DNA of 64,000 nt from Chlorobiaceae bacterium (lineage in GTDB: Bacteria; Bacteroidota; Chlorobiia; Chlorobiales; Chlorobiaceae), in the NCBI GenBank assembly GCA_013335115.1, contig JAAXWQ010000003.1:124001-188000 (forward strand). The letters are read 5' to 3'. The first letter of the stretch is position 1, and the number at the start of each line of letters is the position of its first letter. The position numbers were made by a program, and so were the translations under genes. Of the stretch, positions 42,036 to 44,374 are shown one piece after another. Under the pieces are notes generated by a model. The model was not told where the DNA came from. It was given only the letters and a program-made list of their open reading frames with translations, and searched no databases.

Positions 42036-42440
42036 ATGGCAGATATCTACCGTTTCGGCATCTCCCTCGACAGGGAACTGATCGAGGCCTTCGACCGGCA
42101 CGTCGCCGCACAGCGATACCAGAGCCGGTCGGAGGCGATCCGCGACCTCATCCGCGAAGAGCTGGTCCGAAAGAAGTGGGCGGAAGGCGGCACGGTGGCG
42201 GGAGCCATCGTGATGACCTACGACCACCACAAGCGCGAGCTGGTCAACCGCCTGCTCGACATCCAGCACGATTTCCACGACATCATCATCTCCACCCAGC
42301 ACGTGCACCTCGACCACGGCAACTGCCTCGAAGTGATCGCCGTCAAGGGCCAGGCTCCCCAGGTGGACCAGCTCTCCACCGCCCTCAAGGTGCTCGTCGG
42401 TGTCAAGCACCTCAACCTCAGCGTATCGGCGACCGACTGA
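42036..42440 (+). CDS. nikR: Nickel-responsive regulator NikR
   Basis: A 134-residue ribbon-helix-helix repressor with an ACT-type nickel domain. The RHH part is YRFGISLDRELIEAFDRHVAAQ with SRSEAIRDLIREEL. The high-affinity nickel ligands (His, His, His, Cys in the E. coli protein) are visible in QHDFHDIIISTQHVHLDHGNCLEVIAVKG. It binds a dyad upstream of nickel-uptake genes when nickel is plentiful. Here GGAG lies about 12 bases before the ATG, and it is four bases behind nfnB, so it is likely expressed from the nfn promoter. The outer-membrane barrel and Ni/Co transporter genes follow after a candidate operator. Confidence 0.94.
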   Translation: MADIYRFGISLDRELIEAFDRHVAAQRYQSRSEAIRDLIREELVRKKWAEGGTVAGAIVMTYDHHKRELVNRLLDIQHDFHDIIISTQHVHLDHGNCLEVIAVKGQAPQVDQLSTALKVLVGVKHLNLSVSATD

Positions 42441-42468
42441 ACAGCCTGCCTCGTATTATTTTGATTGC

Positions 42469-42507
42469 ATGCCGATAGCACGATTATTATTTTCATGCTA
42501 TCGGCAT
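42469..42507. promoter_or_regulatory. Candidate NikR operator dyad
   Basis: ATGCCGATAGCA (42469-42480) and TGCTATCGGCAT (42496-42507) are perfect 12-bp arms with a 15-base AT-rich spacer. Split half-sites about two helical turns apart are what the NikR tetramer needs, and the dyad lies between nikR and the Ni-transport genes, 27 bases before the barrel start. Confidence 0.75.
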
Positions 42508-42533: not shown

Positions 42534-43325
42534 ATGCATAAGAAAGCATACCCGCTTGCGCTTGCCGCAACGCTTTTTTCAGCAACCTCTTTTGCGGCCA
42601 TGCCCCTGGTTACCGATGATACCGGGACCCAGGGCAAAGGAGGCCTGCAGGTCGAACTTGGCATGGAAAGGCAACGGGCAAATGCAGATGCCGAGGGAGT
42701 GGCGACAAAAACAACTGCATGGGCCCCTGCCACAACGCTCACCTACGGACTTGCGGACAAGATCGACCTGGTTGCCGGCATGCCGTACACCTGGCGAAAG
42801 GTCGAGGCGGGAGGAACATCGACCACCGGCGACGGAATCGGCGACCTGTCGCTCCAGCTCAAGTGGCGCTTCCTGGAACTCCAGGAGGGCAAGCTGAATC
42901 TGGCCCTCAAGCCCGGCATCACCCTGCCGACCGGCAAAGATGGCAACGGATTCGGCACCGGAAGGAGGAGCGGGGGCATGCTGCTGGCGGCGACACACAA
43001 AGGCGCACTCGGGGCCGTCCACGTCAACCTCGGCTACACCCGCAACGAATACCGCCTGGAAGCGGACAGGATCGCGTCGAAAAACGACATCTGGCATGCA
43101 TCGATTGCGGGGGAACTCAATATGGCGACGGAACTGAGGGCCGTAGCGGATATCGGCGTGGACACGAACAAAGACAAGGACAACGATATAAATCCGGCCT
43201 ACCTGCTCGGAGGCATCATCTACAGCCCTTCCGGCTGTATCGATCTCGATTTTGGCGTCAAGGGCGGCTTGAATGCTGCGCAACCGGCCACCTCCCTGCT
43301 GGCAGGCGTGACGATGCATTTTTGA
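42534..43325 (+). CDS. Outer-membrane beta-barrel protein, putative Ni/Co channel
   Basis: A 263-residue exported protein. The signal peptide MHKKAYPLALAATLFSATSFA ends before AMPLVTDDTGTQGKGG. The mature part has alternating beta strands (LQVELGMERQRAN, TTLTYGLADKIDLVAGMPYTW, DLSLQLKWRFLE, NLALKPGITLPTGKDGNG, VHVNLGYTRNEYRL) and ends in SLLAGVTMHF, with the terminal Phe of outer-membrane barrels. It resembles the transporter-type MetA_deg porins. It is the first gene after the NikR-like dyad and is followed 23 bases later by the inner-membrane nickel/cobalt transporter, so a channel for metal entry is a reasonable inference. No TonB box is seen. Confidence 0.75.
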   Translation: MHKKAYPLALAATLFSATSFAAMPLVTDDTGTQGKGGLQVELGMERQRANADAEGVATKTTAWAPATTLTYGLADKIDLVAGMPYTWRKVEAGGTSTTGDGIGDLSLQLKWRFLELQEGKLNLALKPGITLPTGKDGNGFGTGRRSGGMLLAATHKGALGAVHVNLGYTRNEYRLEADRIASKNDIWHASIAGELNMATELRAVADIGVDTNKDKDNDINPAYLLGGIIYSPSGCIDLDFGVKGGLNAAQPATSLLAGVTMHF

Positions 43326-43348: not shown

Positions 43349-44374
43349 ATGCATATGTCTGATGCCTTGCTCTCCCCGGTCGTCGGCGGCGCACTCTGGG
43401 CTGCCAGTGCCGGCATGATCGGCCGGTCGTCGCGAAAAATCTCCAGCGAATCCGACGGCTCGAAAACGGTACTCATGGGGGTTTTGGGAGCGTTCGTCTT
43501 CGCCGCACAGATGATCAATTTCACGATTCCCGGCACCGGTTCCAGCGGCCACATCGGAGGCGGCCTGCTCCTGGCCGTGCTGCTCGGGCCCTGGAGGGCA
43601 TTCATCACCATCTCGTCCGTGCTGGTGGTCCAGGCCCTCTTCTTCGCGGACGGAGGGCTGGTCGCCCTTGGTTGCAACATCTTCAACATGGGCTTCTTCC
43701 CGGCATTCGTCGCTTTCCCGTTCATCTACGAACCGATTGCCGGATCCACGGGCTCCCGGGGCAGGCTTGCCGCCGCCAGCATCGTCTCGGCCACGGCAGG
43801 AATTCTCATGGGAGCATGCGCCGTGGTCGTCGAAACCACGGCATCCGGCATCTCCGACCTCCCCTTCGGCACGTTCATCCTCTTCATGCTCGCGATCCAC
43901 CTGGCGATCGGCATCATCGAGGGGCTCGTGACCTGGGGCGTCCTTTCGTTCGTCATGAAAACCGACCCAGTTCTTCTCCTGGCAGGCCGGTCCGGCGCGA
44001 GGGCAAACCGCCGCTTCGTCGCCGGAGCATTCCTCTTGGCAGCCATGGCAACCGGAGGCTCGCTCTCATGGTTCGCCTCGTCGAATCCGGACGGCCTGGA
44101 ATGGTCGATTTCGAACGTGACCGGCAAGGAGGAACTCCATTCCCCTGCTGAAACCGCCCACGCACTCCTCGCCGGAGTGCAGCAACGGCTCGCCTTCATG
44201 CCCGATTACGGCTTCAGGCGCAGCGAAGGCCCCAACTCATCCGGAACAGCCCCGGCTTCGGCCGTGAGAACCGGTACGTCGATATCCGGAATGCTTGGCA
44301 GCATCATGGTGTTCCTCATCGCCGGGGCGACCGGCCTCATATTACGGCAACGCAGGGGAGCTGCGGCCTCATGA
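43349..44374 (+). CDS. nikMN: ECF-type nickel/cobalt transporter substrate-binding subunit (NikM/CbiM with PDGLE/NikN part)
   Basis: A 341-residue membrane protein. The N-terminus MHMSDALLSPVVGGALWA supplies the His2 metal ligand of CbiM/NikM. Six or more hydrophobic segments follow with GSSGHIGGGLLLAVLLGPWRA, which includes the second conserved His, and GCNIFNMGFFPAFVAFP. The C-terminal third carries WFASSNPDGLEWSISNVTG, the PDGLE module that replaces a separate CbiN/NikN, then a final transmembrane helix. This layout favours NikMN. AGGGG lies nine bases before the ATG. The NikQ gene overlaps its end by four bases. NikR next door argues for nickel rather than cobalt. Confidence 0.9.
   Translation: MHMSDALLSPVVGGALWAASAGMIGRSSRKISSESDGSKTVLMGVLGAFVFAAQMINFTIPGTGSSGHIGGGLLLAVLLGPWRAFITISSVLVVQALFFADGGLVALGCNIFNMGFFPAFVAFPFIYEPIAGSTGSRGRLAAASIVSATAGILMGACAVVVETTASGISDLPFGTFILFMLAIHLAIGIIEGLVTWGVLSFVMKTDPVLLLAGRSGARANRRFVAGAFLLAAMATGGSLSWFASSNPDGLEWSISNVTGKEELHSPAETAHALLAGVQQRLAFMPDYGFRRSEGPNSSGTAPASAVRTGTSISGMLGSIMVFLIAGATGLILRQRRGAAAS

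Follow-up and report, generated by a model that had tools for sequence, protein, structure and literature searches.

How nickel crosses the outer membrane on its way to a dedicated inner-membrane importer is the question raised by a locus of a Chlorobiaceae bacterium, in which a short predicted outer-membrane beta-barrel is the first gene product of a nickel-uptake operon. The locus lies in a window of 64,000 nt (the whole stretch of DNA analyzed; GCA_013335115.1, JAAXWQ010000003.1 positions 124,001-188,000, forward strand) from a genome of 2.1 Mb. Passage of free divalent metals across the outer membrane is mostly ascribed to general porins or TonB receptors. We propose that this barrel is probably something different, a TonB-independent outer-membrane channel for divalent metal ions or small hydrophilic metal complexes. 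The observations that bear on the proposal are the gene order, the regulation signals, the fold family, and a repeated linkage of the barrel to unrelated metal importers.

A barrel gene in a predicted NikR-regulated operon

The genes and signals of the locus are arranged as follows.

42036..42440 (+): nikR, nickel-responsive repressor, 134 amino acids, RHH_1 and NikR_C domains; NikR models matched over their cut-offs
42461..42490 (+): candidate sigma-70-like promoter TTGATT-18-TATTAT, overlapping the operator, from a consensus match only
42475..42501 (+): putative, near-perfect NikR-type operator ATAGCAC-N13-ATGCTAT, within a longer inverted repeat at 42469-42507
42534..43325 (+): predicted outer-membrane 12-stranded beta-barrel, PF13557/COG4313, 263 amino acids, first gene downstream of the operator
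42600..42641 (+): MPLVTDDTGTQGKG, a conserved barrel segment that precedes strand 1 at the N-terminus of the mature protein (consensus [H/M]PLxTDDTGTQGxG)
43349..44374 (+): nikMN, fusion of the substrate-binding component CbiM with a PDGLE domain, 341 amino acids, PF01891 and PF13190
44371..45123 (+): nikQ, T component (CbiQ) of an energy-coupling factor (ECF) transporter, PF02361
45139..45861 (+): nikO, ECF ATPase with a TTG start, PF00005

The barrel gene is separated from nikR by a gap of 93 bp and its stop codon from the NikMN start by 23 bp, and the partner transporter qualifies as the NikMNQO ECF type, with a CbiM carrying an N-type domain, a CbiQ, and an ATP-binding cassette ATPase in one operon. 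We set the barrel start at ATG 42534, corresponding to the ATG at which relatives begin, although the mechanical open reading frame reaches upstream to TTG 42465; the resulting N-terminus is a Sec signal peptide with the end ...SFAA. The first-pass annotation placed a signal-peptide barrel behind a NikR operator and ahead of an ECF nickel transporter, an arrangement confirmed by the open reading frame, Pfam, and the operator. The inverted repeat at 42469-42507 has 15-nt arms that are 93% complementary, a value that none of the shuffles equals, and its core agrees with the reversed-orientation NikR signal GTAACAC-[N13/14]-GTGTTAC that Rodionov et al. reported (PMC545781). Across the 2.1-Mb genome, the degenerate form of the site has a single copy, the one at this position, and its reversed control has none; RTARCAC-N13-GTGYTAY at ≤2 mismatches in 14 is present in 42/43 nikR-barrel gaps, compared with 0.7% of shuffled gaps. 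With a NikR-type operator ahead of its gene, the barrel is a predicted member of the NikR regulon, and because the promoter-like sequence overlaps this operator, nickel-loaded NikR would block the barrel and the transporter together.

The barrel matches PF13557 over residues 29-261 (E value of 2.9e-15; 57.4 bits against a cut-off of 22), and this is the sole Pfam match in the protein; neither a TonB plug nor a TonB-receptor barrel domain is found in the scan, in agreement with the earlier description of a short barrel without a plug. An AlphaFold model built with 34 relatives has 12 strands and a mean predicted local distance difference test (pLDDT) score of 85.8, with low pLDDT in residues 1-22. 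Its top solved structure by Foldseek is FapF (PDB 5o65/5o67/5o68; E value of ∼1e-10, template modeling [TM] score of ∼0.7), and the COG4313 channel Pput2725 (4rl8) is also matched (E value of ∼1e-8, TM score of 0.67). At the sequence level the PDB yielded no match, either to the single protein or to a profile, and the profile missed Pput2725 as well; kinship to 4rl8 and FapF therefore rests on Pfam and fold. With its profile match and modeled 12-strand outer-membrane fold, the barrel is assigned to COG4313/PF13557. Identity as FilC (NCBIfam) was rejected, with a score far under the cut-off for that model.

Linkage to metal importers

In a survey of 86 genomes of the host family, barrel relatives are present in 60 and CbiM in 78. 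For 58 of the 83 relatives counted, a same-strand CbiM gene is no more than 1.5 kb away, compared with an expectation of ∼0.1; the nickel/cobalt linkage is conserved, and family members do not lie mostly away from nickel and cobalt genes, the outcome that the first-pass annotation had held up as the counter-case. The barrel is carried by 41/53 NikMN-type loci and 10/13 Cbi-type loci, and is present in 60 of the 78 genomes with CbiM and in none of the eight without it, several of which are incomplete. The commonest order at nickel loci is nikR-barrel-nikMNQO, and at four loci another set of genes, a canonical CbiM/CbiQ/CbiO, comes after nikR and the barrel. Ten paralogues head cbiM operons, with a cobalamin riboswitch ahead of the barrel in 5/5 scanned, four head feoA-feoA-feoB, and three are directly behind an Nramp gene; separate nickel, cobalt, and iron barrels occur within one genome in G052, G106, and G121. 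At one nickel locus (L085:7001-8752) a tandem barrel duplicate is positioned between nikR and nikMN, with ∼40% and 51% identity to the window barrel. Barrel genes are broken or frameshifted at G015:C19, G172:C56, G173:C8, and G193:C98, and as the nik operon is otherwise intact around the broken gene in G015 and G172, loss is tolerated in some strains.

The linkage extends to other phyla. A scan of GTDB genomes yielded 311 relatives, the best 80 of which were kept for analysis of their neighborhoods. All 34 of the Burkholderia, Pandoraea, and Chitinasiproducens loci (L121-L154) have mgtA, coding for a Mg2+ ATPase, followed by the barrel on the same strand, and at loci of Nitrospirota, Thermodesulfobacteriota, and Myxococcota the barrel heads nikMNQO, cbiM, or feoAB operons. 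Other contexts in these three phyla include HupE with cbiD, FTR1, and a NikK-like DUF4198 gene with a TonB receptor. We drew 198 genomes evenly from Nitrospirota, the phylum of one such locus, and obtained 40 strong neighborhoods, in 34 of which CbiM/NikR, FeoAB, or Nramp adjoin the barrel. As in Chlorobiota, cobalamin riboswitches are upstream of the barrel in the scanned Nitrospirota cobalt loci. In 13 control neighborhoods of distant PF13557 proteins, CbiM/NikR adjoin none, and FeoB is two genes away in one. FeoB-like matches near L260-L262 were rejected because they span only the G domain of other GTPases.

Two other arrangements were noted in these neighborhoods. At L176:126-5702, ExbB/ExbD/TonB-like genes, a TonB-dependent receptor, a NikK-like DUF4198 gene, and the barrel stand in a row, and this locus has both kinds of outer-membrane metal entry side by side. 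Two PF13557 cousins outside the branch (L268 and L213) carry the motif RPFxTEDAGVAG, the former with FeoB two genes upstream and the latter with an FTR1-like match 3 kb upstream; it is possible that they represent a second iron-linked PF13557 group.

A tree of 121 barrels (FastTree) groups them by host phylum, not by metal, and its well-supported branches require at least 10 label changes for iron and at least 6 for cobalt. Within the Chlorobiota tree (IQ-TREE), the cobalt barrels form one clade (100/100) that is grouped with a nickel barrel, and the iron barrels are scattered among nickel barrels. Because the tree follows phylum and has many label changes, the metal linkage arose repeatedly; inherited synteny as its source is ruled out by the many metal switches together with the same links in distant phyla. 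The strongest argument for divalent metal as the substrate is that one barrel family is repeatedly paired with unrelated inner-membrane importers whose sole common trait is the type of cargo. The suggestion that the barrel is another outer-membrane entry route for nickel was right in kind, but nickel alone is too narrow, and a divalent-metal barrel is the better reading because close paralogues head cobalt and ferrous-iron operons or stand behind Nramp and mgtA genes. We lean toward the broader view that the branch with [H/M]PLxTDDTGTQG constitutes widespread TonB-independent divalent-cation channels of Chlorobiota, Nitrospirota, Thermodesulfobacteriota/Myxococcota, and Burkholderiales, recruited repeatedly to nickel, cobalt, iron, magnesium, and manganese operons, with each copy under its own regulator.

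A candidate pore and its alternatives

In the mechanism we propose, divalent ions (or small hydrophilic metal complexes) would diffuse through the barrel into the periplasm, and the co-transcribed ECF transporter NikMNQO would take up periplasmic nickel in an ATP-driven step. When nickel is scarce, NikR would leave the operator and switch on the whole operon, so that the outer- and inner-membrane steps would rise together. The wider subfamily may act likewise with cobalt, Fe(II), magnesium, and manganese importers, and the choice of metal would be set by the regulator driving the barrel and by the importer draining the periplasm. We infer both the conduction of metal by the barrel and its selectivity; the barrel itself is probably a passive pore that is only broadly cation-selective.

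The most conserved stretch of the branch is the N-terminal segment [H/M]PLxTDDTGTQGxG of ∼15 residues, and by likeness to Pput2725 this acidic segment probably sits in the lumen. Strand residues predicted to face the lumen, from strand alternation and not from coordinates, are net acidic (mean of 13.6 acidic versus 7.0 basic). Of the transition-metal barrels examined, 78/89 have His188, which no sampled distant PF13557 protein has; together with the N-terminal motif, this residue sets the branch apart from those proteins. The five magnesium-linked rows examined, from one clade only, all lack His163, His188, and Glu194. Lumen His163 was considered as a mark of metal barrels and is weakened, as many distant PF13557 proteins carry it too.

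Several points weigh against a metal channel. Pput2725 was judged to be a channel for hydrophobic substrates, one that is closed below ∼150 mV and that its own N-terminus all but blocks (PMC4493636). The acidic residues E41 and D104, although invariant, are for the most part present in distant PF13557 proteins too. The barrel is not a constant part of such operons, as 12/53 of the NikMN type are without it, and some barrels have no metal-gene neighbor at all. Five Chlorobiota barrels (L055, L066, L095, L096, and L105) are downstream, on the same strand, of a CopA-type P-ATPase (Pfam-checked at L055, where there is also a cupredoxin-domain gene). CopA-type ATPases are normally exporters, and this context fits the uptake idea poorly. 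Nitrospirota barrels also adjoin chemoreceptor (methyl-accepting chemotaxis protein) genes at L180, L196, L201, L204, L206, L211, and L239, of which L196 and L206 are one locus fetched twice and L204 is the only one with a Pfam-confirmed chemoreceptor; a CheA-like gene is also beside the barrel at L204. Metal entry might be linked to taxis in these cases.

What passes through the pore, if anything does, can be read in other ways. The barrel could admit a small metal chelate or metallophore, such as a nickel-amino-acid complex, and not the hydrated ion; the same operons would fit, Pput2725 passes glycine-sized solutes (PMC4493636), and the barrel gene at L176 has those for a TonB-dependent receptor and a NikK-like DUF4198 protein as neighbors. 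However, no genes for making or exporting a metallophore were seen in the neighborhoods, and FeoB, MgtA, Nramp, and CbiM are all partners of this kind of barrel. These importers are generally regarded as movers of free divalent ions, and we consider the chelate reading unlikely. The least probable reading, in our view, is that the barrel is a standard COG4313 channel, serving hydrophobic or amphipathic molecules, whose place in metal operons is incidental. The Pfam family and fold are shared, and TcpY and SphA are tied to trichlorophenol and sphingosine, respectively (PMC4493636). Yet the linkage counts and repeated origin exclude chance placement, genes for degradation were not seen in these operons, and the N-terminal motif and His188 separate the branch from distant PF13557 proteins; although a role with hydrophobic substrates is ascribed to PF13557, the gene context of this branch argues for metals instead.

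It is also very unlikely that the protein is an outer-membrane accessory that conducts nothing into the cell, whether a metal sensor, an envelope stabilizer, or a FapF-like secretion pore. The nearest structure is indeed the secretion channel FapF, and the chemoreceptor genes adjoining several Nitrospirota relatives would suit sensing, but no secreted partner gene recurs, the long N-terminal extension of the FapF type is absent, and the recurrent partners are importers. A divalent-metal channel is the reading that we favor.

Relation to known systems and implications

The barrel resembles the COG4313 channels Pput2725, TcpY, and SphA in Pfam family, 12-strand barrel, and the segment before strand 1, but the known members are linked to hydrophobic substrates, whereas this branch is found in metal-uptake operons and carries [H/M]PLxTDDTGTQG. 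The barrel of Pput2725 likewise has 12 strands, with a lumen almost filled by the N-terminus, and in vitro the channel lets ions and glycine through (PMC4493636). FapF is the best structural match, but no fap genes are among the annotated neighbors and the barrel, at ∼240 amino acids when mature, has no long N-terminal extension. TonB-dependent nickel receptors are likewise outer-membrane components tied to nickel uptake, and include the NikR-regulated FrpB4 and FecA3 as well as CntO (listed in PMC11247825); they have a plug and a 22-strand barrel domain, whereas the window barrel has neither and is a much smaller protein of 263 amino acids and 12 strands. Functional precedents for outer-membrane metal channels are MnoP of Bradyrhizobium and FupA of Francisella, the latter a porin mediating ferrous iron transport (PMC7432831); the likeness drawn here is one of function, and we do not claim membership in either group. 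In Geobacter Fur regulons, predicted porins (psp; OprB-type) are next to or co-regulated with feoAB (PMC545781), similarly pairing a porin-like gene with a ferrous iron importer, but these belong to other families (PF07396-like and PF04966) and are linked to iron only.

The fold family is known, and the openly accessible literature searched yielded no proposal of a metal function for this branch. For the papers in that literature that mention COG4313 or PF13557, no metal link is apparent from title or abstract, and the words porin, TonB, and outer are absent from a comparative study of nickel and cobalt utilization. If the proposal is correct, a dedicated passive barrel paired with FeoB, NikMNQO, CbiMNQO, MgtA, and MntH-type importers would fill an outer-membrane gap in metal uptake by bacteria of sulfidic and anoxic habitats, and the proposal is open to test in one tractable organism. 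Part of a large family that carries the annotations "phenol degradation" or "transporter" would thereby gain a function as well.
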